This document shows, piece by piece, positions 10,792-26,305 of a DNA stretch of 48,440 nucleotides. Each line of letters starts with the position of its first letter. The first letter of the stretch is position 1. The translations under genes and the position numbers were made by a program. The notes beneath the pieces were generated by a model, which was not told the DNA's origin, did not search any database, and saw nothing but the letters and a program-made list of their open reading frames with translations. Source of the stretch: a virus; IMG/VR virus record IMGVR_UViG_3300050821_000890, positions 1 through 48,440 of that record; one strand, written 5' to 3'.

Positions 10792-11004
10792 ATGATAATT
10801 CGTTGTAGATGTGGAAAGACTTGGACAGCGTCTCCGTACAAAAATAACGCTGTCAAGACGGGTTGGTGTGATCCTTGTCGCCAGAAACGTTTGGCACGTC
10901 CAAAGATTCTTTTGTCTTTTCGTCCTAATCTCCCGAAGTCAAGGCTTGGAGTAAGGATACGAATAAAGCCCACGTGGCGGAATGGGAAGACGCAAGGGAC
11001 TTAA
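10792..11004 (+). CDS. Small zinc-ribbon protein overlapping the tRNA gene
   Basis: 70 residues from MIIRCRCGKTW. CRC at the N terminus and CDPC about 25 residues later make a zinc-ribbon pattern, followed by a basic tail. GGAG lies 9 nt before the ATG. The last 12 codons run into the 5' half of the tRNA-Leu gene, so either the frame is real and sequence is shared, or the natural product ends differently. Moderate confidence only. Confidence 0.5.
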   Translation: MIIRCRCGKTWTASPYKNNAVKTGWCDPCRQKRLARPKILLSFRPNLPKSRLGVRIRIKPTWRNGKTQGT

Positions 11005-11054
11005 AATCCCTCGGCCGAAAGGTTGTGTGGGTTCGAGTCCCACCGTGGGCACCA
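10968..11054 (+). tRNA. tRNA-Leu(UAA)
   Basis: An 87-nt cloverleaf. Acceptor GCCCACG pairs with CGTGGGC. The D arm is GCGG...CGC with a GG-containing loop. Anticodon stem AGGGA/TCCCT closes a loop CTTAAAA with anticodon TAA. A long class II variable arm follows, then T arm GTGGG-TTCGAGT-CCCAC, discriminator A and encoded CCA. It reads UUA leucine codons, probably supplementing the host tRNA pool for a phage that uses more A/T-ending codons. Confidence 0.97.
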
Positions 11055-11148: not shown

Positions 11149-11430
11149 ATGTCCGAAAGGAGGCTTGTGTCGGACAATTTCACATCTATGATTGAAGACT
11201 TAGTTTATGAACGTAAGCTTTCACGCGAGAGAGCTGAATGGTATTACAGACAAGCCACTGATTTCTTAGGTCTTTTGGATGCTAGACATCCTAGACTAAA
11301 GGGCGATGCCCTCAAAGCAGCTATAAAGTCTCGACTCTATAGCCATACGTTCTACCGTCCTGTGCCATTGCCGGACAGGCGCAAGACGTTGAAGGAACTG
11401 TTCCGTCCGGCACCACCATGGAAAGAATGA
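11149..11430 (+). CDS. Small hypothetical protein
   Basis: 93 residues from MSERRLVSDNFTSM, chosen because GGAGGAGG lies about 9 nt upstream. An in-frame ATG at 11074 behind GAGG would add 25 residues (MHQMFNKIM...). The product is helical and basic, with an amphipathic core (LSRERAEWYYRQATDFL) and a Pro/Arg-rich C terminus. No family recognised. Confidence 0.65.
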   Translation: MSERRLVSDNFTSMIEDLVYERKLSRERAEWYYRQATDFLGLLDARHPRLKGDALKAAIKSRLYSHTFYRPVPLPDRRKTLKELFRPAPPWKE

Positions 11431-11441
11431 GGAAGATCTCT

Positions 11442-12878
11442 ATGTCTGATCACTCTCAAGTCACGATCATCAAAGAGCCCGATGGTCTGATCGACAGGGA
11501 ATACCTGGAACTGGCGATCAAGATCCACGACTCCTGCAGCGGCGTTGCCATTCCCAATGGCGAGTCCGAGTCGATGGACATCGAGACCAGTCGTGGTCCT
11601 GCGGACATCGAAGCTCTGATGAAGACTCAGGAGGCATTCAAGGAGAAGCGTCTGATCCTGTCTCTCGGTCATCATCCGGTTGGTTTCCCGGACGACGAGA
11701 CGCAGCCGTTCTCGATGATCAAGGACAGCAATGACGACGAGGTCGTCGTGGCCTTCCTTGACGGCGACTTCCCGAAGTTCGCCAAGAAGAATTCGCTCTA
11801 TTCTTCCGCATATCATTTCGCTAACGACTTTCTCGCTCCGAAGCTCGGCGAGATGTACCGGGCTTGTGAAGGCGCCATGCCTGAGTTCATGAAGAAGATC
11901 CAGACGCTGAAGAAGGAGATACAGGCCAACGCTGACCCCCGTGGCGTTGTCACCATCGTCACCTACGACGATGCCATCACTCCGGTTAGTTTCTCCAAGA
12001 ACGATCTCGACGGAGACTATCCGGAGTTCTGGACTTCGAACTCTTACGGCTATGACGATGAGCCGGAGGAGGAGGCTGATGATGAGGCCGATGACAGCCT
12101 CGAAGGCAGCACTTCGGGAACTCCCGTTGTTGCTGCGGCTCCTCCTCCTCCGAAGAAGGCCAAGAAGAACCTGCTCGGTGGTGGCCCCGTCGTTGCTCCG
12201 GGGACGAAGTCCACTCCTGTTCCGGAGAACAACCTCGTCGTCAAGAAGGACGAAGAGTGGGTAATGGCCTCTTGTCCGACGAACATCGTCAAGAACAAGG
12301 ACATCCGGAGGTGGTACGATCGGATGGCCGGGACCGTCCCTGGTAACTTCAAGGACCGGCCACAGGTGCGTGTTCAGAAGTCTCGGCTCAACCCGACAAT
12401 CAAAAGCCTTCAGGAGATTGGCGATCGGGCTGTTGCTTCTGCGACTGCTCCTGCCCCCCAAGGGCTCCAGAATGCCAAGCCACCTGCCTCTGTTCCCAAC
12501 GCGGAGCCGATCAAGGCGACTTCGGAGTTCTTTCACATCATTCCTGCTGAGGATCAACAGAAGTTCTTCAAGAACTTCGCCGTTCGTCCTGACGTCAAAG
12601 GGAATGTCGAGCCTGAAGATATCCAAGGGCAGGAGAAACGTTGGGCAACGTTCTGTGAGATCACGAAGGTACCTGATCTCATAAAGGTAGCCAACTGGTC
12701 CGATGCTTCCCTCTACCTCCTGATCGGAGAGCATAAGCGCCATGCGTTCAAGCTCCTCCGTGATCTGCTCCGGGCCTACGCGATCTCCAAGGGTCAGCAG
12801 AAGGCTCCGACGACCGAAGGTGTCGCCCCTCCTACGACGGGGGTCCAGATTGTCCCCGCTCGCAGGAAAGCCCTGTAA
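11442..12878 (+). CDS. Putative class II glutamine-amidotransferase-like protein with extended C terminus
   Basis: 478 residues; ATG 11442 follows GAGGA by 8 nt. The N-terminal 200 residues recall an Ntn-type GATase-II layout: a DSCSGVAIP segment (30-37), then GHHPVGFPDDETQPF (76-90), then VVVAFLDGD (101-109), like the RxxDSxG...HxR...HPF...HNG order of the family. The N-terminal catalytic Cys expected after Met is absent (Ser), so it may be inactive or use another residue. An acidic/Ala/Pro-rich linker (about 205-255) leads to an unrecognised C-terminal domain. It lies before a gamma-glutamylcyclotransferase-like gene. GC content is clearly higher than in neighbouring AT-rich genes. Fold assignment is tentative. 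Confidence 0.6.
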   Translation: MSDHSQVTIIKEPDGLIDREYLELAIKIHDSCSGVAIPNGESESMDIETSRGPADIEALMKTQEAFKEKRLILSLGHHPVGFPDDETQPFSMIKDSNDDEVVVAFLDGDFPKFAKKNSLYSSAYHFANDFLAPKLGEMYRACEGAMPEFMKKIQTLKKEIQANADPRGVVTIVTYDDAITPVSFSKNDLDGDYPEFWTSNSYGYDDEPEEEADDEADDSLEGSTSGTPVVAAAPPPPKKAKKNLLGGGPVVAPGTKSTPVPENNLVVKKDEEWVMASCPTNIVKNKDIRRWYDRMAGTVPGNFKDRPQVRVQKSRLNPTIKSLQEIGDRAVASATAPAPQGLQNAKPPASVPNAEPIKATSEFFHIIPAEDQQKFFKNFAVRPDVKGNVEPEDIQGQEKRWATFCEITKVPDLIKVANWSDASLYLLIGEHKRHAFKLLRDLLRAYAISKGQQKAPTTEGVAPPTTGVQIVPARRKAL

Positions 12879-15298: not shown

Positions 15299-15410
15299 AA
15301 ACATTATAGACGCTGATGTTGAAGTCCTCTCCGTGAAGATTGCGGTTGAACACGCAGAAGACATGGAGAAGGAAATCAAGAACGCAGGATTATTAGTGGA
15401 GTTTAAATGA
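15207..15410 (+). CDS. Small protein overlapping helicase 3' end
   Basis: 67 residues. The ATG at 15207 follows AGGAG by 7 nt and overlaps the helicase gene by 92 nt in another frame; the last 37 codons lie outside the overlap. It ends in ATGA overlap with the uracil-DNA glycosylase gene. The C-terminal half is helical and acidic. Probably a replication accessory protein by position only. Confidence 0.65.
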   Translation: MTTSTDISIVRSLHHAHLVGVSQLGKKWLLENIIDADVEVLSVKIAVEHAEDMEKEIKNAGLLVEFK

Positions 15411-16054
15411 TTGAACACTGGGAACAGCTGAAGTTCTGGCAGTCAGGTGAGTGGCAAGCAACTGAGGAGAAGTTAAATGCTCTACAAGACAGCGGAGTAC
15501 GGCTTAGTCCGAAGAGAAAGGATCTATTTCGAGCTCTCGATCTCACACCTTTTAAAGAGGTCAAAGCAGTCATTGTTGGTCAGGATCCTTACCCTGATGC
15601 TCGCCATGCAAATGGCGTTGCTTTCTCTATCCCTATGGATTGCTTCCCATACCCTCCAAGCCTCCAGAATATCTTTTTTGAATACTCCGACGTCACCCAA
15701 GACCTGAAGTATCCGTATCCTAAGACCGGATGCTTAGAGCCTTGGTGTAAGCAAGGAGTGCTCTTGTGGAATGCTTACCCGAGCCTTCCACGCATCGAAG
15801 AACTTATGTATTTGACTGATGAAATACTTGTAGAGTTGAACCTTAGAGGTTCTGTTGTGTTTGTGTCTTTAGGTAATGTGGCTCAGGAATTTGTAGTGAG
15901 GAACAAGTGTAATAACGTTCTTCACTACTCTCACCCTTCCCCATTAGGGTACAAGAAGGGGTGGTCACCTTTCTTCGGAAGTCGTTTGTTTAGTACCATT
16001 AACGATAAGTTATGTGGTATGAACGTCGAACCTGTAAACTGGAGACTACCATGA
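15407..16054 (+). CDS. ung: Uracil-DNA glycosylase, family 1-like
   Basis: 215 residues. The water-activating motif VGQDPYPDARHANGVAFS (about 57-74) and the intercalation/catalytic loop HPSPLGYKKGW (about 175-185), followed by GSRLFSTIN, match family 1 UDG; the usual GQDPYH is GQDPYP here. The enzyme excises uracil from DNA. A phage-encoded copy beside the helicase suggests removal of dUMP from new phage DNA. It also argues against a uracil-substituted genome. Confidence 0.92.
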   Translation: MIEHWEQLKFWQSGEWQATEEKLNALQDSGVRLSPKRKDLFRALDLTPFKEVKAVIVGQDPYPDARHANGVAFSIPMDCFPYPPSLQNIFFEYSDVTQDLKYPYPKTGCLEPWCKQGVLLWNAYPSLPRIEELMYLTDEILVELNLRGSVVFVSLGNVAQEFVVRNKCNNVLHYSHPSPLGYKKGWSPFFGSRLFSTINDKLCGMNVEPVNWRLP

Positions 16055-18216: not shown

Positions 18217-18468
18217 TTGTTGATCGAGAGAGACACGAAACATACCCAGCTGTATCGTGTCGTTTATCCTGATGGGGAAATTTCCGATCTGTTGAATTTG
18301 AGTCGAGCGAAAGAACTCGAACGGTTTGTCTATAACCCCAAGACCCAAGGAGACAACCATGGGCGACTTCAAGAAGTTCGAAAAGCTGAAGGAAGAGCTG
18401 GAAATGCGCCGGGGAAAGAACGAGGAGAAGATCGATCTTCTTCCCGTCGCTCCCGACAACGGCGTTGA
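18217..18468 (+). CDS. Small ORF leading into the AAA+ gene
   Basis: Up to 83 residues from a TTG (18217 or 18220) close behind GGAGGGG. The first 45 residues look protein-like (LYRVVYPDGEISDLLNL). The last third overlaps the AAA+ gene in another frame and is Arg/Gly/Ser-rich, so it is probably constrained by the other frame. Real but small, or a leader peptide coupled to the ATPase; uncertain. Confidence 0.45.
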   Translation: MLIERDTKHTQLYRVVYPDGEISDLLNLSRAKELERFVYNPKTQGDNHGRLQEVRKAEGRAGNAPGKERGEDRSSSRRSRQRR

Positions 18469-19381
18469 TACCTCCGAGGCTGTGGAAGCGGTGAAGGAAG
18501 CTCTGTCTTCCTTCGTCAACAAGCAGCAGGTGGTTAACATCGTTCGTAATGAGCTGATGTCTAATCCTGGAATGAAGAACGTCACCTTGTTGCGAGAGGG
18601 TGTTCCAGAGAAGCTTCCTGAAGAACTTCGTCACTACCTGTTCCCTGAAATCCTCACCACCGTTAACTTGGGTATCCCTGCTGCGTTGATTGGTCCAGCG
18701 GGTTCGGGCAAGTCCACCGTGAGCGAGCAGATTGCGAAAGCGTTGAAGCTTCGCTTCTTCCTCCAGAATGGTGTAACTGGCACGCATGAGCTGACTGGTT
18801 ACATGGATGCCCACGGCCGTTACAACACCACTCCGTTCCGAGATGCTTTCGAGAACGGTGGGTTGATTATGGTGGATGAGGTTGATACTTCGGAAGCTGG
18901 TGCCCTGAAGTGGCTGAACACCGCTTTGGCCAATGGGCATGCTGGGTTCCCCGACCGTGCTGAGCCTGTTCGTCGGCACGACAGCTTCCGGATTATCATT
19001 GCCGCTAACACTTGGGGTTCTGGTGCGGACCGTCTGTATGTTGGTGCGAACCAACTGGATGCGTCGACACTGGATCGCTTCGTGTTCTTCGACTTCCAGT
19101 ATGACGAGAAGCTGGAGATGCTGGTCTCCGGTAATGTGAACTGGACTGAGCGAGTGCAGCTCCTTCGGAAGAATGCCTTTGAAGTCCATGCGCGTATCGT
19201 CATCTCCCCTCGTGCTTCCATCAACGGTGCCAAGCTGATTAAGGCTGGGTGGTCGTGGAATGAAGTGGAGGAGCGAGTGATCTGGAAGGGAATTGATCTT
19301 GAGCTGAAGGACCGGATCCTCAATCCGAGGAAGAAGGCCGACAACGACAACGATGTCCCCAAGCAGAAAAAGCGAGCATAG
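18359..19381 (+). CDS. MoxR/CobS-like AAA+ ATPase
   Basis: 340 residues from MGDFKKFEKL, set by AAGGAG 6 nt upstream. Walker A GPAGSGKST (about 112), Walker B LIMVDEVDT (about 171), sensor 1 IIAANTWG (about 213) and the Arg-finger context LDRFVFFDF are all present. The loop HELTGYMDAHGRY after Walker A is typical of the CobS/MoxR branch. These ATPases work with a vWA-domain partner to remodel a target; the gene 3 nt downstream fits that partner. GC content is higher than that of the surrounding AT-rich genes. Confidence 0.88.
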   Translation: MGDFKKFEKLKEELEMRRGKNEEKIDLLPVAPDNGVDTSEAVEAVKEALSSFVNKQQVVNIVRNELMSNPGMKNVTLLREGVPEKLPEELRHYLFPEILTTVNLGIPAALIGPAGSGKSTVSEQIAKALKLRFFLQNGVTGTHELTGYMDAHGRYNTTPFRDAFENGGLIMVDEVDTSEAGALKWLNTALANGHAGFPDRAEPVRRHDSFRIIIAANTWGSGADRLYVGANQLDASTLDRFVFFDFQYDEKLEMLVSGNVNWTERVQLLRKNAFEVHARIVISPRASINGAKLIKAGWSWNEVEERVIWKGIDLELKDRILNPRKKADNDNDVPKQKKRA

Positions 19382-19383
19382 AC

Positions 19384-20337
19384 ATGAAGCAGACAAAGAC
19401 GGTAGGGAATGCACAGCATCTCGAAAGTCTTTTCCCCTCCCCTGAGGAGGGGGTTAAAACATTTTCATCTTTCTGGTCCTCCCCTGAGAAGTTTGCTGAT
19501 CAGGTAGAGAAGATGGACAGGAGCAAGGCTTGGAGTGACTCCGCTTGGGATACCGACTCTGGAGATTGGTATGGCACCAAGAGCTTGCAAGAAGCTATTG
19601 ATCTTGTCCACAAGGGGTGGAAGGAAGGCGTTGACAAAGTAGAACGTCTTCGTGGAGCAATTGTAGCTCAAACACCCATGCAGCTGAAGCCTGCTAAGTT
19701 CGGAATAGTAGGCTCAGTCCCTAGTGTCCCTAGGGCTGTGTCTGGAAATCCGTTGAATATGAAGACAGTCGACCCGAAGAAATCGAGCAAGAGACCTATC
19801 ATAACGCTGATTTCGGACATGTCTGCGAACTGCTCACACAGTTCTGCAGAGTTCGTCAATCGAGCTGCAGTGGTTGCAGCGCTGATTGATCAGATCGAAG
19901 CTGCAGGATATTCGTGCGAAGTGATCGCCACAGCGTATGGACAGTGCGGTAATTTCCGTATTAAGTCCCATGTTGTGGTGAAAGACAGCAATCAGCCGGT
20001 AGATGTCGCTAGGCTTGCCTTTGGTATTGGGCATCCTGGTATGTTCCGTAGGCTCATCTTTGCAGAATGGGGACACGATCATTTCAACGAAGACCTTGGA
20101 TACGGCTTAGGGTACAATCATAGGATTGTTATCGGCTCTGAGGAGCAAATAAAGCTTGCGGAGAAACACATGTATGTGTTACCATCTATTAACTCTAATA
20201 GGTTCTTCGCTACTGAAGAGTCGGCGGAGACTAAAGGTCTCACATTCATCTTGCAATCTTTGAGAGCACAGAAGTTTCCTTGCTTTACTTATAAGGGTCT
20301 TCCTGAGGAAGACATACCAGGTACTTCGGATGATTAG
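19384..20337 (+). CDS. vWA-like partner of the AAA+ ATPase
   Basis: 317 residues starting 3 nt after the ATPase. The core ITLISDMSANCSHSS (about 140-154) resembles the first strand and metal-site loop of a von Willebrand A domain (DxSxS, here DMSAN), followed by a helix (AAVVAALIDQIEAAGY) and strands with hydrophobic spacing. Large N-terminal part is Trp/Ser/Asp-rich and unassigned. Such AAA+/vWA pairs act as chaperone-like or chelatase-like machines. The substrate in this phage is unknown. Confidence 0.65.
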   Translation: MKQTKTVGNAQHLESLFPSPEEGVKTFSSFWSSPEKFADQVEKMDRSKAWSDSAWDTDSGDWYGTKSLQEAIDLVHKGWKEGVDKVERLRGAIVAQTPMQLKPAKFGIVGSVPSVPRAVSGNPLNMKTVDPKKSSKRPIITLISDMSANCSHSSAEFVNRAAVVAALIDQIEAAGYSCEVIATAYGQCGNFRIKSHVVVKDSNQPVDVARLAFGIGHPGMFRRLIFAEWGHDHFNEDLGYGLGYNHRIVIGSEEQIKLAEKHMYVLPSINSNRFFATEESAETKGLTFILQSLRAQKFPCFTYKGLPEEDIPGTSDD

Positions 20338-20348
20338 AATGGAGGTAA

Positions 20349-22247
20349 ATGAGAGTAGTAATAGACATTGAGGCTAATGGATTAAAGCCTACTAAGATTT
20401 GGTGCATTGTCTGTAAAGACATCGACACTGGTGAGTATCATATTTTTAGAGAAGGTGATTATGCGAATAAGTTTGTTGAGTTTAGTAAAAAGGTCACTAC
20501 GTGGATTGGACATAACATTCTCGATTATGATCTTGCTGCTATTAAGTCCATTCTTCTACTTGATCTTCCTGGTGAGAGAATTGATACCCTTATCGTTTCA
20601 AAGCTGGTTGATTATTCCCGCAAGGGTGGTCATAGCCTCGAACAATACGGAGAAGAGTTCGGTCTAGCGAAGGGTAACTTCAACGATTGGTCCAAGTGGT
20701 CCCAAGAGATGGAGGAGTACTGTGTCAGAGATGTGGACATTACCCATAAAGTATATCTTCGTTATCTTGATATTATCAATGATCGTAAGTGGGCTAAGGC
20801 TATTAGTCTCGAACATAGGTTTCAACTTATTGTCAGCGATCTACATGATCATGGCTTTGCTTTTAATACTGTTAAGGCTACTAATCTTTTAAAGAAGATC
20901 GAGGGAGAGCTCCATGCTGTTGACGCGAAGATCCTTACCGACTTCCCCGGAAGACTCAGACCAATTAAAGAAATTACTCCTAGACTTACCAAGTATGGTA
21001 CTCTCAATAAGAGTGACTTCAGATGGGTTCGAGATGGAGATCTCTCACAATACTCTGAGGGAGCCACGTTCACTAGATGTGTTTACGTACCCTTCAACCC
21101 ATCGAGCCATAAGCAGATTATTGATATTCTCCGCGAGGCAAATTGGTCTCCTACAGAAAAGACCAAGACGTACATACAAAAGGAACGCGACGCCGCCCGT
21201 GGAGAAGTAGACGAGAAGGCGTTAGAACATTTAAAGATTTATGGTTGGAAGATTAACGAAACCAACCTGCAGACCTTACCGCCAAAGGCTCCCGCACCTG
21301 CTAGGACCTTGGCGCAAAGGATCCTTCTTGAGTCCAGGCGTAGAACTCTGGTTGAGTGGCTAGCTCTTGTCCAGCCCGATGGCAGGATACACGGAGAGTT
21401 CTATGCAATCGGAGCCTGGACTCATAGGATGGCTCACCAGAAACCCAACACCGCTAACATCCCTAATGAGTTTGCAATCAATGGCTCAGTGAAACTCTAT
21501 GGGAAAGAATTGAGGCAACTATGGCAGGCACCCAAGAATAGGCTACTTGTCGGTGTAGACGCAGAGGGAATTCAACTTCGTGTGTTCGCTCACTACATTG
21601 ACGATAAGGAATTTACCGAAGCTCTGGTTAAGGGGACTAAAAATGATCGAACTGATCCACATTCTCTCAACCAAAGAATTCTTGGAAGTGCTTGTAAGAG
21701 TAGGTCGGCAGCTAAACGCTTCATCTTCGCTCTACTTCTTGGAGCAGGAGTTGGCAAGCTGGGAGAGATCTTGGAATGTTCCAAGGAGGCCGCTCAAGAT
21801 GCACTTGACCGTCTCATGGAGAGATACCAAGGGTTCACTGAACTCAAGAAGAGCATCATTCCCGCTGACGCTAAAAGAGGATGGTTTCTGGGGCTGGACG
21901 GAAGACAGGTGGTTATTCCCGATGAGACAGTTGGTGGACGTAGACACCTCGCTATGTCTGGTTATCTCCAGAACGGAGAAGCGGTTATAATTAAGACCGC
22001 TGCTGTTAAGTTCTATCCAGAGCTTAAGAAGCTGGATAGTTTCTTAGTTGATATTATCCACGATGAATACCAAACAGAGACTCCCAATAACATGGCTATT
22101 GCATTGCAGGTTGCTGAGATCAAAGCTAAAGCAATTGCTTACGCAGGTGAGCATTTGAAATTGAAGTGTCCTCTATCTGGGAGTTATTGGGATGAAGACC
22201 ATCATAAAGATTACACCATCGGTAAAAACTGGTGGCAAACGCATTAA
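20349..22247 (+). CDS. Family A DNA polymerase with 3'-5' exonuclease
   Basis: 632 residues; GGAGGT upstream. Exonuclease motifs: DIEANGL (6-12), GHNILDYDL (54-62) and YCVRDVD (124-130). Polymerase motif A VGVDAEGIQLR (about 400), motif B RSAAKRFIFALLLGAG (about 452) and motif C IIHDEYQ (about 568) are intact. It is shorter than T7 DNA polymerase (704) but has the same domain order without a 5'-3' exonuclease. It replicates the genome with the primase-helicase upstream. Confidence 0.95.
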   Translation: MRVVIDIEANGLKPTKIWCIVCKDIDTGEYHIFREGDYANKFVEFSKKVTTWIGHNILDYDLAAIKSILLLDLPGERIDTLIVSKLVDYSRKGGHSLEQYGEEFGLAKGNFNDWSKWSQEMEEYCVRDVDITHKVYLRYLDIINDRKWAKAISLEHRFQLIVSDLHDHGFAFNTVKATNLLKKIEGELHAVDAKILTDFPGRLRPIKEITPRLTKYGTLNKSDFRWVRDGDLSQYSEGATFTRCVYVPFNPSSHKQIIDILREANWSPTEKTKTYIQKERDAARGEVDEKALEHLKIYGWKINETNLQTLPPKAPAPARTLAQRILLESRRRTLVEWLALVQPDGRIHGEFYAIGAWTHRMAHQKPNTANIPNEFAINGSVKLYGKELRQLWQAPKNRLLVGVDAEGIQLRVFAHYIDDKEFTEALVKGTKNDRTDPHSLNQRILGSACKSRSAAKRFIFALLLGAGVGKLGEILECSKEAAQDALDRLMERYQGFTELKKSIIPADAKRGWFLGLDGRQVVIPDETVGGRRHLAMSGYLQNGEAVIIKTAAVKFYPELKKLDSFLVDIIHDEYQTETPNNMAIALQVAEIKAKAIAYAGEHLKLKCPLSGSYWDEDHHKDYTIGKNWWQTH

Positions 22248-22257
22248 GGAGAAGAAA

Positions 22258-22428
22258 ATGGCATTGTATGAAGTTGATTTCACAGCTATTGAACCGATTG
22301 TCGGTTTGGTTGAAATAAGCGCAGATCCTGAAACTGTTAGAGAAGAAGCTTTGTTTCACATTGTAGCGTCTTATCCTGAATACGAAGATATTGAGATTAT
22401 AGAAGTTAGAAAGGTTGAAGATAATTAA
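22258..22428 (+). CDS. Small acidic protein next to SSB
   Basis: 56 residues from MALYEVDFTAIEPI, start fixed by AAGGAGAAGAAA. A compact ferredoxin-like or alpha/beta profile with an acidic C-terminal helix. Its stop shares bases with the SSB start (TAATG). Probably a replication accessory by position. Confidence 0.65.
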   Translation: MALYEVDFTAIEPIVGLVEISADPETVREEALFHIVASYPEYEDIEIIEVRKVEDN

Positions 22429-22898
22429 TGGCTACCGAATATATTTTATTCACTGGCAAGGGTAAGTGGGTTAAGACCAACCAACTTAACCAATATGGAA
22501 AATGGTCCTTAAATCTTTACATGGATAGTGAAAACGTTGATCGTTTCAAAGCCATGAAGGTTAAGAACCACTTAAAGAAGGATGAAGAAGGATACTATGT
22601 ACAATTCAGTCGAAATCCTGATCGAAAGGTTGGAGGTAAGACAATCGCAATGCCCCCTCCAATTGTTTTGGATAAGGACAATGTCCCAACCCTCGTTGCT
22701 ATTGGAAATGGAAGTGACCTTACTGTAAAGATTGAACGGTATGGTTACAAGAACCCTCAGACCAAAGCTGAGGAATATGCGTGCAGGATCCACGCTGTAC
22801 GGATTGATAACTTAGTTCCTTATGGCGACAACAGTCGTACAGAAGGGGAGATTAAGGATGTCCAAGATTTTAAAGACAAGCCGATCTCCTTTGACTAG
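22428..22898 (+). CDS. Single-stranded DNA-binding protein, gp2.5-like
   Basis: 156 residues. Beta-rich profile with conserved-looking aromatics (YILFTGKGKWVKTN, KWSLNLYMD, GYYVQFSRNP) and an acidic tail ending KDKPISFD, as expected for an OB-fold SSB whose tail recruits replication partners. Directly downstream of the polymerase and upstream of nuclease genes. Family call rests on sequence character and context. Confidence 0.75.
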   Translation: MATEYILFTGKGKWVKTNQLNQYGKWSLNLYMDSENVDRFKAMKVKNHLKKDEEGYYVQFSRNPDRKVGGKTIAMPPPIVLDKDNVPTLVAIGNGSDLTVKIERYGYKNPQTKAEEYACRIHAVRIDNLVPYGDNSRTEGEIKDVQDFKDKPISFD

Positions 22899-23013
22899 GG
22901 AAGAAAGGGACCAGAGGTATGCTGAGGAAGTAATTAAAGCTTTCCTACCTAAGGCCCCTAACGATAAGATAGTTAAACATTGGATTTATAAGGTCCCTGG
23001 TTCGTTTGATTAG
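22858..23013 (+). CDS. Small basic protein overlapping SSB 3' end
   Basis: 51 residues, MSKILKTSRSPLTREERDQR... The ATG is preceded by AAGG and a GGGGAG and overlaps SSB by 41 nt. Charged N terminus, hydrophobic-aromatic C terminus (HWIYKVPGSFD). It is the last gene before the long RNA-like region. Confidence 0.55.
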   Translation: MSKILKTSRSPLTREERDQRYAEEVIKAFLPKAPNDKIVKHWIYKVPGSFD

Positions 23014-23702
23014 CGAGTAGTCCAAAAACGTAGAGACCTCGGGTCGCGGAGGCGGTTGGCTGTGGACCAGCTTGCCTCTGGACGATGGCCCCTATTAGAG
23101 CAGACATTCGGTCCCTCTATACCCACCGGGCAGATATGGGAAGTTGCGTACCCATCTCGCAAACAGTGGTCCTCTGGTCCAATAGAGGATCATCGGGCAA
23201 CGGTACTCAGCCGTCCTCGCAAAGCTAGCAGCTAAACCGCCCAAATCTCGGGACATGATTGCCTGGGAGAGCACGGCTCTTAAACCGTTTTGGCGGGTGA
23301 GAAGTAGAAACGGTAAAATGCCATCGACATACCTCCGGTGACAGACGTGATCAGTCCGTCTACTCTAGGAAGTGCCGTCCAAGTTTAAGGTCAACGCATT
23401 CCAGCAGGTTGGGTAGACAAAGGTAAGAGGACACGTCAGGTGAATGCCACACCAACATCCTCGTTGTCTGATGGATAGCAACCGCAACCAGATGTATCGC
23501 CTCTCTAGGTAAACCACGTAGCTACGGTCCCTGGATGGAGGCGTAGAGATCAGTCTCCGGTCCCTCAGGCTATCAGCTGATAACTCGACAGTCCCGTTGA
23601 AGCTTGCTCCGGCAGCTGCTGTGTCGCTCATTGCCTCAAACCCAGTAGCACCAGATGGGTGTGAAAGTACGAGCTGGGCTCCCCGTCTCAATATGTGTCC
23701 CT

Positions 23703-23778
23703 CGAATAGCTGACAAGGTGGCAGAGAGGTCTTATGCCCCAACAACTGTTGGCCCCGAGGGGGTTCGACTCCCCCTTC
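23703..23778 (+). ncRNA. tRNA-like element inside the RNA region
   Basis: A perfect T arm GGGGG-TTCGACT-CCCCC (23759-23775) and a TA-GCTG...CAG D arm with a GG-containing loop (23707-23724) stand at tRNA spacing. The acceptor pairs only about 4 bp (CGAA/TTCG). The anticodon arm is poor (AGAGG-TCTTATG-CCCCA, 3 of 5 pairs). A 5-bp hairpin CCAAC/GTTGG (23739-23752) fills the variable region. It is a decayed tRNA, a tRNA mimic or a domain of the larger RNA. Confidence 0.5.
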
Positions 23779-24369
23779 GCAAAGCGCGGAGTTAGGCAAG
23801 TAGGCAGCCAAGGCGCCCCAATGCCCGTCGTTGCATGGCAAGACCACACCCGAATGCTATGGGGAGTGCAATCCCCTACACGCTGTGACGATCGAGTCAG
23901 CCCTTGTCTCATGGCGAAAGAGAGTTTTAGGACACGAGACCCCGTGACTATGCTGATTTGCTCAATGGCCTCCTCCCTTGAAGAGCAGGGCTATAGACGT
24001 ATGGATCAGACATCATTTCGTCGTCTGTACGGTTCAGAACCCCCGTTTCACCACATCTAAAGCCGTGCCTCGAATGTTCTCAAGGCAATGGTTATGGCAG
24101 AAGTACCCTTATGGACCTTAGTACTCGACGTCCGCTTGATCCCGTCTAACGACGATGACTCAGCCGATTGATGCGCTGACAAGCAGGCTCCCTCACCAGA
24201 GGTAAGCTACGGACCTAGGAACTCTCCACACAATAAGGCCTTCACATTGTGATGTTGGTGTAGATCCCTCGAACAGAAAAGTGGAGGTGCACTCATGTTC
24301 TTCCTCAAGAGCTGCTCCGGTCCCAATCAGTATATCCACCCGGAGTGGGAGCGTCCACCTTAAGTTTTA

Positions 24370-24430
24370 GGGGCTGTCACCATGACAAACGGGAGGCCCA
24401 TCAGGCAATAGATGCAAACCTCCCAGCCCC
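24370..24430 (+). ncRNA. Three-way junction at the 3' end of the RNA region
   Basis: GGGGCT (24370-24375) pairs with AGCCCC (24425-24430). Inside are hairpin GTCA-CCA-TGAC (24376-24386) and stem GGGAGG/CCTCCC (24391-24396/24419-24424), which carries a CATC/GATG tip (24399/24411). Nested pairing of this length is well above expectation for 61 random bases. It ends about 6 nt before the AGGAG of the next gene, so it may insulate or control its translation. Confidence 0.65.
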
Positions 24431-24448
24431 GCCAATATAGGAGATTAA

Positions 24449-24658
24449 ATGAGAGTCAAAGACTTAATCAAAGCTTTACAAGCCCACGATCCAGAACAAA
24501 GAATTGTTGTTGATGGATACGAGGGTGGTTTCAACGATATAGAAGATTTGGAAGTAACAAAGATTAAACCAAACCCAAGTGCCGCTTGGTACGATGGGCA
24601 ATACGATTATGTTCGTGAAGATGAACCTGGAGAAACTGTTGTTTATATTCCTCGTTAA
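24449..24658 (+). CDS. Small conserved-type hypothetical protein
   Basis: 69 residues, MRVKDLIKALQAHDPEQRIV...; good AGGAG upstream. The opening helix plus a GYEGGFNDI segment and acidic middle resemble a small protein family common in phages and bacteria, of unknown role. First gene after the RNA region. Confidence 0.7.
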   Translation: MRVKDLIKALQAHDPEQRIVVDGYEGGFNDIEDLEVTKIKPNPSAAWYDGQYDYVREDEPGETVVYIPR

Positions 24659-24680: not shown

Positions 24681-24995
24681 ATGTGGATTGTAACTCCCGC
24701 CACACAGGCTCCCCAACAGGGAATGCCCCAAGTTGGAGGAGGGATTACTTTCAGTTCCCTTAAGGAGCTGAAACAATTCATGAAGGGACTCGATAGTAAG
24801 AAGGACGACAAGAAGAAAGAAGAAGAAGAAAAGAAAAAGAAGGAAGGAGACAAGAAAGGCACGGACTGGAAAGCAGTGTTCCAATCTATGTTTTGGCTCA
24901 CCCTTTTGTTCCCGTTCGTTGGGCCTGCTTACTACTTCGCGGTACTAGGATCGTGGGAATTATTAAGGATGGGTATGTCTGCAATGCTCAAATGA
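24681..24995 (+). CDS. Small membrane protein with charged coiled region
   Basis: 104 residues. Gln/Gly-rich N terminus, a run of alternating Lys and Glu (about 38-60), then a C-terminal hydrophobic region (about 72-100, WLTLLFPFVGPAYYFAVLG) that would span the membrane once or twice. AAAGGAGG upstream; stop in ATGA overlap with the exonuclease start. Function unknown. Confidence 0.65.
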   Translation: MWIVTPATQAPQQGMPQVGGGITFSSLKELKQFMKGLDSKKDDKKKEEEEKKKKEGDKKGTDWKAVFQSMFWLTLLFPFVGPAYYFAVLGSWELLRMGMSAMLK

Positions 24996-25852
24996 TCCAT
25001 ACTTTAATTCCCGACATTCAAAAGCTTGTGACCAGAAAGGATGGATGGTTCGATGAACAGTTGGCTCGTTCTCTCAGCGAGGATATATCGAGTCGCTTAT
25101 CACGGAGCTTCAACGGAGATGCCCGCCGGCCTGCACTTCGGCTGTCTCAAATGGGTAATCGATGTCCAAAGGCTCTCTGGCTCTCGATCCACCATCCGGA
25201 ACTGGCACAAGCTTTACCGCCGTGGGCGGAGGTTAAATTCTCGTTTGGTCACATTCTCGAAGCAGAAGCCGTAGCATTCTGCAAAGCTGCCGGACACAAG
25301 GTAGAAGGAGAACAACATGAAGTGGTTCTTGACGGAGTTAAGGGTCACCTGGATGCTATTGTTGATGGCGTTGTTGTTGATTTCAAATCTTGTAGCCAGC
25401 GTAATTTTGAGAAGCTCAAGAAAGGGACTCTTAGATCGCAAGACGATTTTGGGTATCTGGATCAGCTGGACGGTTATGTGGTGGCTACTCTTCAAGACCC
25501 ACGTGTCACTGTGAAGGACCGAGGATATATATTTGGTATTGACAAAACATTAGGACATATGGTATTGTATGAACATATTATTCGACCAGACAACATTAGA
25601 GAACGAATTAGAAAGTACAAAGAGATTGTTGCACGAACTAGCCCGCCAAGTTGCGAATGCCAAACGAGACCCCGAGGGGAATCTGGTAATATCGAACTCG
25701 GCACGGTGGCTAGCTATAACGTCTTTAAATATCAGTGCTTTCCAGGACTACGGACCTTCCTTTACGCTAGTGGTCCCGTCTACCTCACCCACGTCGCAAG
25801 AAAGCCAGACGTAATTGAAATTAATCAATACGGAAAGGTTGTTTATCAATGA
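24992..25852 (+). CDS. PD-(D/E)XK nuclease, RecB/Cas4-type exonuclease
   Basis: 286 residues; start from the ATGA overlap at 24992. Catalytic signatures: GHLDAIVDGVVVDFKS (about 117-132, Asp then D-x-K) and the QxxxY-type motif LDQLDGY (about 155-161). An upstream SQMGNRCPKALWL segment and Glu in HILEAEAVAF complete a RecB-like site. It probably resects DNA ends during recombination or degrades host DNA, as gp6 exonuclease does in T7. No Cas genes are present. Confidence 0.85.
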   Translation: MIHTLIPDIQKLVTRKDGWFDEQLARSLSEDISSRLSRSFNGDARRPALRLSQMGNRCPKALWLSIHHPELAQALPPWAEVKFSFGHILEAEAVAFCKAAGHKVEGEQHEVVLDGVKGHLDAIVDGVVVDFKSCSQRNFEKLKKGTLRSQDDFGYLDQLDGYVVATLQDPRVTVKDRGYIFGIDKTLGHMVLYEHIIRPDNIRERIRKYKEIVARTSPPSCECQTRPRGESGNIELGTVASYNVFKYQCFPGLRTFLYASGPVYLTHVARKPDVIEINQYGKVVYQ

Positions 25853-26007
25853 AGTACGAAGGTTCGAGAAACTATGTTTCAGAACATGTATACGATCATA
25901 TTTGGGACAGTGAACCAGGAACAACTATTACAGTTAAAATCTTAGAAGATAAGTGTATTGTCGAAACCGAGAAACAAATTCGAGACAAGGATATACAAGC
26001 AACTTAG
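25849..26007 (+). CDS. Small acidic protein between nucleases
   Basis: 52 residues, MKYEGSRNYVSEHVYDHIWD..., acidic with a beta-like middle (GTTITVKIL). Its ATG overlaps the exonuclease stop (ATGA), and its 3' end overlaps the resolvase start by 50 nt. Position suggests an accessory or inhibitor of the nucleases; no family recognised. Confidence 0.6.
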   Translation: MKYEGSRNYVSEHVYDHIWDSEPGTTITVKILEDKCIVETEKQIRDKDIQAT

Positions 26008-26305
26008 GCAATCGAGAGTTTCTTTTGATTACGAGTCTGAACGTATCCCTTACATAATTGCATCCCATTACATACCTGACTTTATTGTTCATACCCCTCT
26101 GGGGAAAATCTATATTGAATGTAAGGGATACTTAAGACCAGAAGATAAGCGAAAGCTAGTCGCAGTTAAAAAGTTAAACCCACACATGGATCTGCGTATC
26201 CTGTTCTACAGTGCAAACAAGAAAAACCTAACATGGGCTGACAGACAAGGTTTCAAATACGCAATAGACACCATACCAAAGGAGTGGCTTCATGGACTTT
26301 CTTAA
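25958..26305 (+). CDS. Holliday-junction resolvase, T7 endonuclease I-like
   Basis: 115 residues from a TTG start. The T7 endonuclease I catalytic set is readable: E9 (NKFETRIYKQL), D41 (IPDFIVH) and E54-x-K56 (IYIECKGYL), followed by the R-I-L-F strand and the IPKEWLHGL tail that matches gp3 IPAEW. It is shorter than T7 gp3 (149), lacking N- and C-terminal extensions. It resolves branched replication intermediates before packaging. The start is uncertain because no ATG is available and the ribosome site is weak. Confidence 0.9.
   Translation: MSKPRNKFETRIYKQLRQSRVSFDYESERIPYIIASHYIPDFIVHTPLGKIYIECKGYLRPEDKRKLVAVKKLNPHMDLRILFYSANKKNLTWADRQGFKYAIDTIPKEWLHGLS

Follow-up and report, generated by a model that had tools for sequence, protein, structure and literature searches.

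Positions 23014-24448 of a 48.4-kb viral record contain no gene of ordinary size, which raises the question of what this stretch, read on the gene strand, encodes. The window analyzed here is the whole of that record (IMG/VR IMGVR_UViG_3300050821_000890, 48,440 nt). A preliminary description, made from the sequence alone, had proposed that the interval is gene-free and specifies a giant phage-encoded structured RNA. Its setting is as follows:

22428..22898, + strand: ssDNA-binding protein gene, the upstream flank, with similarity to the protein annotated as such in Pelagibacter phage HTVC115P
23014..24294, + strand: RNA body, without a conserved ORF; same-position intervals in relatives have an excess of compensatory pairs in three subgroups
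24992..25852, + strand: Cas4-like exonuclease gene, the downstream flank (phrog_1990, E = 9e-23)

The 5' limit given for the RNA body (23014) is the end of the upstream ORF. Two small ORFs separate the interval from the exonuclease gene, beyond which lies an endonuclease gene (25958-26305). The polymerase and major head protein share 35-48% identity with those of Roseobacter and Celeribacter podoviruses, an example of a near phage being Roseobacter phage CRP-5, annotated as Zobellviridae, Cobavirinae. Elsewhere in the window, a gene of the uracil-DNA glycosylase superfamily (PF03167) is found at 15407-16054, and a MoxR-like AAA ATPase gene (phrog_249) with a phrog_1909 neighbor precedes the polymerase (18326-20337). 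At 11352-12743 a 463-aa ORF lies wholly antisense to a 486-aa sense ORF (GC about 0.57), and probably arises artefactually from a low-complexity gene.

Relatives, all of them metagenomic contigs, were collected with the polymerase, which gave 80 IMG/VR loci, and with an alignment of divergent polymerases, which gave 80 more that overlapped the first; the ssDNA-binding protein, used as a query against IMG/VR, returned no relatives. After removal of duplicates, the comparison set comprised 77 intervals downstream of the ssDNA-binding protein gene. An equivalent interval of 1.1-3.8 kb lies between the ssDNA-binding protein and exonuclease genes of about 68 related viral contigs. From the former gene to the micro-ORF described below, the distance is 1128 to 3785 nt (median 1731), some of the longest intervals including inserted ORFs. 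Five relatives with long intervals (L006, L055, L065, L067 and L068) have extra conserved blocks in common, with 100-490 aligned bases in total, which are possibly an additional RNA domain or an inserted element. The sequence is nearly unalignable across subgroups: a single 25-base segment is all that links the window to its relatives by blastn, and the whole interval found no blastn match among isolate phages.

The longest ORFs within 23014-24448 are 160 aa (antisense) and 108 aa (sense), and none of the ORFs there has a homologue in related phages at E < 0.1 (tblastn). Indel lengths in alignments of homologous intervals are not multiples of three. With no conserved ORF and indels that do not come in threes, a protein-coding region was ruled out. 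Conserved ORFs across homologues had been named as what would undo the RNA interpretation, and they are absent. The claim that the interval is gene-free holds for genes of ordinary size but missed a micro-ORF of 22 codons at 24295-24363. The elevated GC content noted earlier was confirmed, being 0.54 compared with 0.40 in 22001-23000 and 0.47 or 0.45 downstream (0.40-0.47 among the neighbors).

Evidence for structure was sought by comparison within three alignable subgroups (mean identity 63%, 77% and 64%), using RNAalifold consensus structures in 250-column windows and column-shuffled nulls. Compensatory pairs numbered 163 against a null of 52 (maximum 67), 101 against 36 (47) and 255 against 103 (117), an excess of 2.5-3-fold in three independent subgroups; overlapping windows repeat some pairs, with nulls and controls counted identically. 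The polymerase gene, examined as a control in two of the same sets, showed no excess (51 against 50.6 and 103 against 98.9). Folding energies were lower for the + strand than for the - strand in all three sets. The excess of compensatory pairs, together with the flat polymerase control, indicates that the interval encodes a conserved structured RNA. By comparison of sequences, then, one phage group encodes a structured RNA of 1.1-3.8 kb on its gene strand. The folding energy of the window interval by itself is not below that of dinucleotide shuffles (z = -0.43), and protein genes of the same phage have lower folding-energy scores than the interval, so single-sequence folding energy was set aside as evidence for structure. 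The local stems that had first drawn attention are, by the same value (z = -0.43), not in themselves unusual, but the structure they were taken to indicate is supported comparatively rather than energetically. The proposal of a giant structured RNA is thus borne out by compensatory pairs, whose absence had been named as a refutation and which exceed their nulls in three subgroups, and by the lack of a conserved ordinary gene.

An Rfam search of the interval gave no match, including to GOLLD, ROOL, OLE, HEARO and tmRNA. The GOLLD and ROOL models matched neither at the gathering score nor at E <= 5, and they were not found in the relatives; the OLE covariance model was likewise unmatched at E <= 5. 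Group II intron models, including those for the permuted 'T-large' RNAs (PMC8637638), found no match in the interval, and neither ARAGORN nor Rfam called a tRNA or tmRNA there. At E <= 5 the interval gives weak matches to YrlA and SNORD49 only. The suggestion that this might be a new class therefore gains from the absence of Rfam matches even at permissive thresholds, and searches of open-licence papers found no description of the same combination of features. By every test available here both the class of RNA and the combination are new; the single ingredients all have known analogues.

Two kinds of element recur within the body of the RNA, and their positions in the window are:

23340..23356, + strand: P hairpin (G7-R8-C9 / loop AGACG(n)GAUCA / G-Y-C)
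23759..23775, + strand: tRNA T-arm-like hairpin GGGGG-UUCGACU-CCCCC, identified by T-arm recurrence and a match to model R1 (19.8 bits)
23795..23809, + strand: candidate D-arm-like hairpin GGC-AAGUAGGCA-GCC, from its sequence and a YrlA alignment (E = 0.19)

The P hairpin is the core of a conserved motif, UCCGGUGRCAGACG..GAUCAGYC (23334-23356 in the window). Its closing helix is paired in 96.5% of cells across 19 sequences, the window included, a score reached by 2 of 500 shuffles. It also covaries: the pair is A-U in 11 sequences and G-C in five, and in L036 the outer pair is replaced by C-G. A search of 2.9 million viral contigs with the P pattern returned 18 matches, every one of them in this interval of contigs that have this phage group's flanking genes. 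The same pattern matched 21 times in bacterial genomes, never near the flanking phage genes, and for that reason these were taken as chance matches. An additional stem surrounding the P hairpin, seen by eye, was discarded: over 20 loci it did no better than mismatched partners, 1961 of 5000 permutations being as good.

T arms are abundant, with 78 in 47 of the 77 intervals and none on the reverse strand, the average for shuffles being 0.25 intervals. Downstream of the T arm, about 15 loci have first a short hairpin and then a tRNA-Leu-like D arm (UGGYGAAA..GG.A.ACRC). The T and D stems of 12 loci are 95.8% paired, which none of 500 shuffles equaled, and the middle D-arm pair alternates between C-G and U-A among these 12. 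A T arm leading to a D arm with covariation, that is, a permuted module of the YrlA type, is accordingly present in about 12-15 relatives, and further members were recovered with the module model R1. YrlA is a bacterial Y RNA with a circularly permuted tRNA order (PMC11472068), and the order T arm, hairpin, D arm is what the phage modules have in common with it (PDB 6CU1). Matches to the YrlA model (RF02553) fall below its gathering cut-off of 69 bits, the best examples being L033 (29.4 bits, 5e-6) and L002 (1.7e-4); unlike YrlA itself, the phage module reaches no cut-off-level match and is a small part of a giant RNA. In the window the YrlA model aligns to both T arm and D arm at 20.9 bits (E = 0.19), and model R1 leaves the D arm unscored. 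For the window copy of the permuted module, certainty extends to the T arm alone (23759-23775), the weak D arm being possible. The tRNA-like element reported earlier consequently survives as a perfect T-arm hairpin, but not as a complete tRNA, which neither ARAGORN nor the Rfam tRNA model detects. A tRNA gene cluster was also rejected, as the window interval has no tRNAs and 62 intervals gave three calls, two of them odd. A complete tRNA-Leu(UAA) gene does occur at 10968-11054, about 12 kb upstream of the interval. Since the permuted D arms of relatives are tRNA-Leu-like, the modules may descend from a gene of this kind.

The 3' end of the interval carries a feature that is far better conserved than the sequence of the RNA body:

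24283..24287, + strand: Shine-Dalgarno sequence GGAGG of the micro-ORF
24295..24363, + strand: micro-ORF of 22 codons, MFFLKSCSGPNQYIHPEWERPP-stop, ending ERPP; a predicted termination-arrest peptide
24370..24430, + strand: GC-rich hairpin or three-way junction without a U tract (-27.1 kcal/mol, z = -2.6)
24449..24658, + strand: inserted small ORF (69 aa) of the window phage, between the RNA and the membrane protein gene
24681..24995, + strand: small membrane protein gene (104 aa), recognized by hydropathy and gene order

A short ORF led by a Shine-Dalgarno sequence and ending Pro-Pro-stop, conserved at the amino-acid level in the manner of a Pro-stop arrest peptide, is present in 68 of 68 complete intervals (those of the RNA-bearing group that reach the exonuclease gene). 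It is 11-33 codons long (median 14), and there is normally exactly one per interval, one interval having an extra 4-residue match. Among the first 62 intervals, Pro-Pro ends 56 ORFs with a Shine-Dalgarno sequence, the next commonest C-terminal pair ending eight. The Shine-Dalgarno sequence is of the GGAG type at 60 of the 68 micro-ORFs, starts are AUG (62) or GUG (6), and stops are UAA (67) or UAG (1). Neither the length nor the remainder of the peptide is conserved, the sole constant feature being the C-terminal (Arg/Gln)-Pro-Pro-stop.

This end accounts for a frequent 3' string, CCNCCUUAA, which is the end of the micro-ORF reading frame. In the first Pro codon any third base is allowed (T25 A22 C11 G10), and CCU serves as the last Pro codon in 58 of 68. 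Pro-Pro is usually preceded by Arg (29) or Gln (24), encoded by every one of the six Arg codons and by either Gln codon, and the nearest upstream Shine-Dalgarno-AUG is in frame with the Pro-Pro-stop in 54 of 54 cases. Synonymous codon use and in-frame starts imply selection on the end of the peptide rather than on a nucleotide string, a pattern consistent with a peptide that acts through its C terminus on the ribosome translating it. The alternative, that CCNCCUUAA is a nucleotide signal resembling the 16S anti-Shine-Dalgarno ACCUCCUUA, draws on CCUCCUUAA being the commonest form and on the preference for CCU as the last codon; the free third base, the six Arg codons and the in-frame starts speak against it, and it was rejected on synonymous codon use as very improbable. 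Frameshifting or read-through at the Pro-Pro-stop into the next gene was discounted, because distances to the next start vary over all frames.

After the micro-ORF stop, relatives have equivalent GC-rich hairpins. Strong ones follow the stop in 17 of 68 loci, compared with 1% of shuffles, with a U tract in one, and only in some loci do they lie near the next Shine-Dalgarno site. The three-way junction first recognized at the 3' end in the window (24370-24430) is upheld by its folding energy. As a rule, the hairpin in relatives is followed by a gene for a protein of 85-118 aa with a membrane segment; that of the window includes a charged, Lys/Glu-rich stretch. The 69-aa ORF that intervenes in the window seems to move, as a homologue is found just upstream of the polymerase in L011 and L046. 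In relatives outside the RNA-bearing group, the Pro-Pro-stop micro-ORF and the linked membrane protein gene are both absent from the interval, and in Roseobacter phage CRP-13 the ssDNA-binding protein and exonuclease genes are 54 bases apart. Judged from these gene arrangements, the RNA, micro-ORF and membrane protein gene have apparently been inserted or lost jointly. The preliminary description had overlooked the micro-ORF, the linked membrane gene and the fact that the tRNA-like element is a T arm.

Our preferred explanation, to which we assign a probability of roughly 0.5, is that of a new class of giant RNA with its 3' boundary set by a termination-stalled ribosome that gates the membrane protein gene. 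Ribosomes would load at the strong Shine-Dalgarno sequence, translate the 11-33 codons and stall at termination, where the C-terminal Pro-Pro would slow peptide release. A C-terminal proline slows release and also induces SsrA tagging at termination (Hayes et al. 2002, as cited in PMC13410324), and selections for stalling peptides have yielded three classes, Pro-stop being one (Tanner et al., as cited in the same article). From this known release defect we infer a stalled ribosome at the 3' boundary of the RNA. Held against the hairpin, it would mark and protect the 3' end, and it would gate the membrane protein gene behind it in the way that the Pro-stop leader TnaC does in bacteria. In the least certain step, the T-arm and permuted D-arm would give the RNA body a surface like the tRNA elbow, to which a partner that handles tRNA binds. 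The purpose of the stall may be to gate the membrane gene, to protect or define the end, or to tether a trans-acting RNA to the ribosome or membrane. An RNA of more than 1 kb far exceeds what a leader needs, which counts against this explanation. So do the folding energy of the window RNA by itself, which is no better than that of shuffles, and the small gene placed after the micro-ORF, ahead of the membrane gene, in the window and in a few relatives, an arrangement less compatible with strict cis control of a single target. The post-stop hairpins, moreover, are close to the next Shine-Dalgarno site in some loci only and lack U tracts, so that neither a classic attenuator nor a sequestering switch is visible.

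The two main rival accounts part over cis or trans action of the RNA, and the present evidence does not separate them. The RNA could be a stand-alone, trans-acting molecule, either RNA-only or an RNP, that works with the membrane protein, the ribosome doing no more than forming, protecting or tethering its 3' end. Its length and structure go well beyond those of any leader, it was gained jointly with the gene for a membrane protein bearing a Lys/Glu-rich charged stretch, and giant phage RNAs without a known function exist (GOLLD and ROOL; PMC12286853); in almost every locus, however, the micro-ORF lies directly before the next gene, where a cis-acting leader would be, and a search for a processing site or terminator recognized none. 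We hold this account tentatively, as a serious competitor that falls short of probable. A purely cis-acting, very long leader, the body of which senses translation state, tRNA or a metabolite while the Pro-Pro-stop peptide switches the membrane gene, seems somewhat unlikely. The order Shine-Dalgarno-micro-ORF, hairpin, gene is kept in nearly all loci, the status of tRNA could be read through the T-arm and D-arm modules, and genes for membrane biogenesis are often under the control of arrest peptides (MifM, PMC4423224; CliM, PMC13183943). Yet other genes lie between leader and target in several phages, that of the window among them, and there is no consistent terminator or Shine-Dalgarno-sequestering hairpin.

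A bolder variant, which we regard as unlikely, is a particle made of the giant RNA and a parked ribosome, which the neighboring membrane protein may bring to the membrane, with the tRNA-elbow modules engaging the translation machinery in trans. We know of no RNA-ribosome hybrid device of this kind. Least credible of all is that the interval is ordinary intergenic debris or the remnant of a tRNA gene cluster in decay. The many T arms, and some T-arm/D-arm neighbors that could be remnants of tandem tRNAs, are what such decay would leave, but tRNA calls are absent from nearly all loci, compensatory evolution occurs throughout, the D arms, permuted in order relative to the T arm, show covariation (U-A, C-G), and position and end are conserved in 68 loci.

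Comparison with known systems places the preferred reading, a giant RNA ending at a stalled ribosome, among several partial analogues. GOLLD and ROOL are giant phage RNAs of unknown function located near tRNA islands (PMC12286853), and the present RNA resembles them in being a very long structured phage RNA with a connection to tRNA. It differs in being longer (a 1.1-3.8 kb interval), in its fixed place in a replication operon, in the Pro-Pro-stop micro-ORF at its 3' end and in carrying T-arm and D-arm pieces rather than tRNA genes. A large RNA beside a small membrane-protein gene also recalls OLE RNA, which works with OapA, a small membrane protein. Here there is no sequence or model match to OLE, the RNA is phage-borne, an arrest-like micro-ORF stands between RNA and gene, and the candidate protein partner would be the product of the adjacent membrane-protein gene. 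With tmRNA it shares a tRNA-like part and a short reading frame, but that frame has its own Shine-Dalgarno sequence and start codon and is situated at the 3' end, and there is neither an acceptor stem nor a match to the tmRNA model. TnaC and other Pro-stop peptides are likewise short ORFs ending Pro-stop or Pro-Pro-stop before a regulated gene, and uORF2 of human cytomegalovirus UL4 also ends Pro-Pro-stop. In the phage RNAs, by contrast, only the last three residues are conserved, a giant structured RNA is attached and the stall is a prediction.

The giant phage RNAs GOLLD and ROOL have been a long-standing puzzle because there was no clue to their function. The RNA described here offers such clues in the predicted stall peptide at its 3' end, its mimicry of parts of tRNA and the membrane gene that accompanies it, and these make specific, cheap tests possible. 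It would add a large, fast-evolving class of RNA, whose subgroups keep structure, place and end signal but have next to no sequence in common, and it looks like a new RNA machine tied to protein synthesis in a large group of uncultivated viruses of bacteria.
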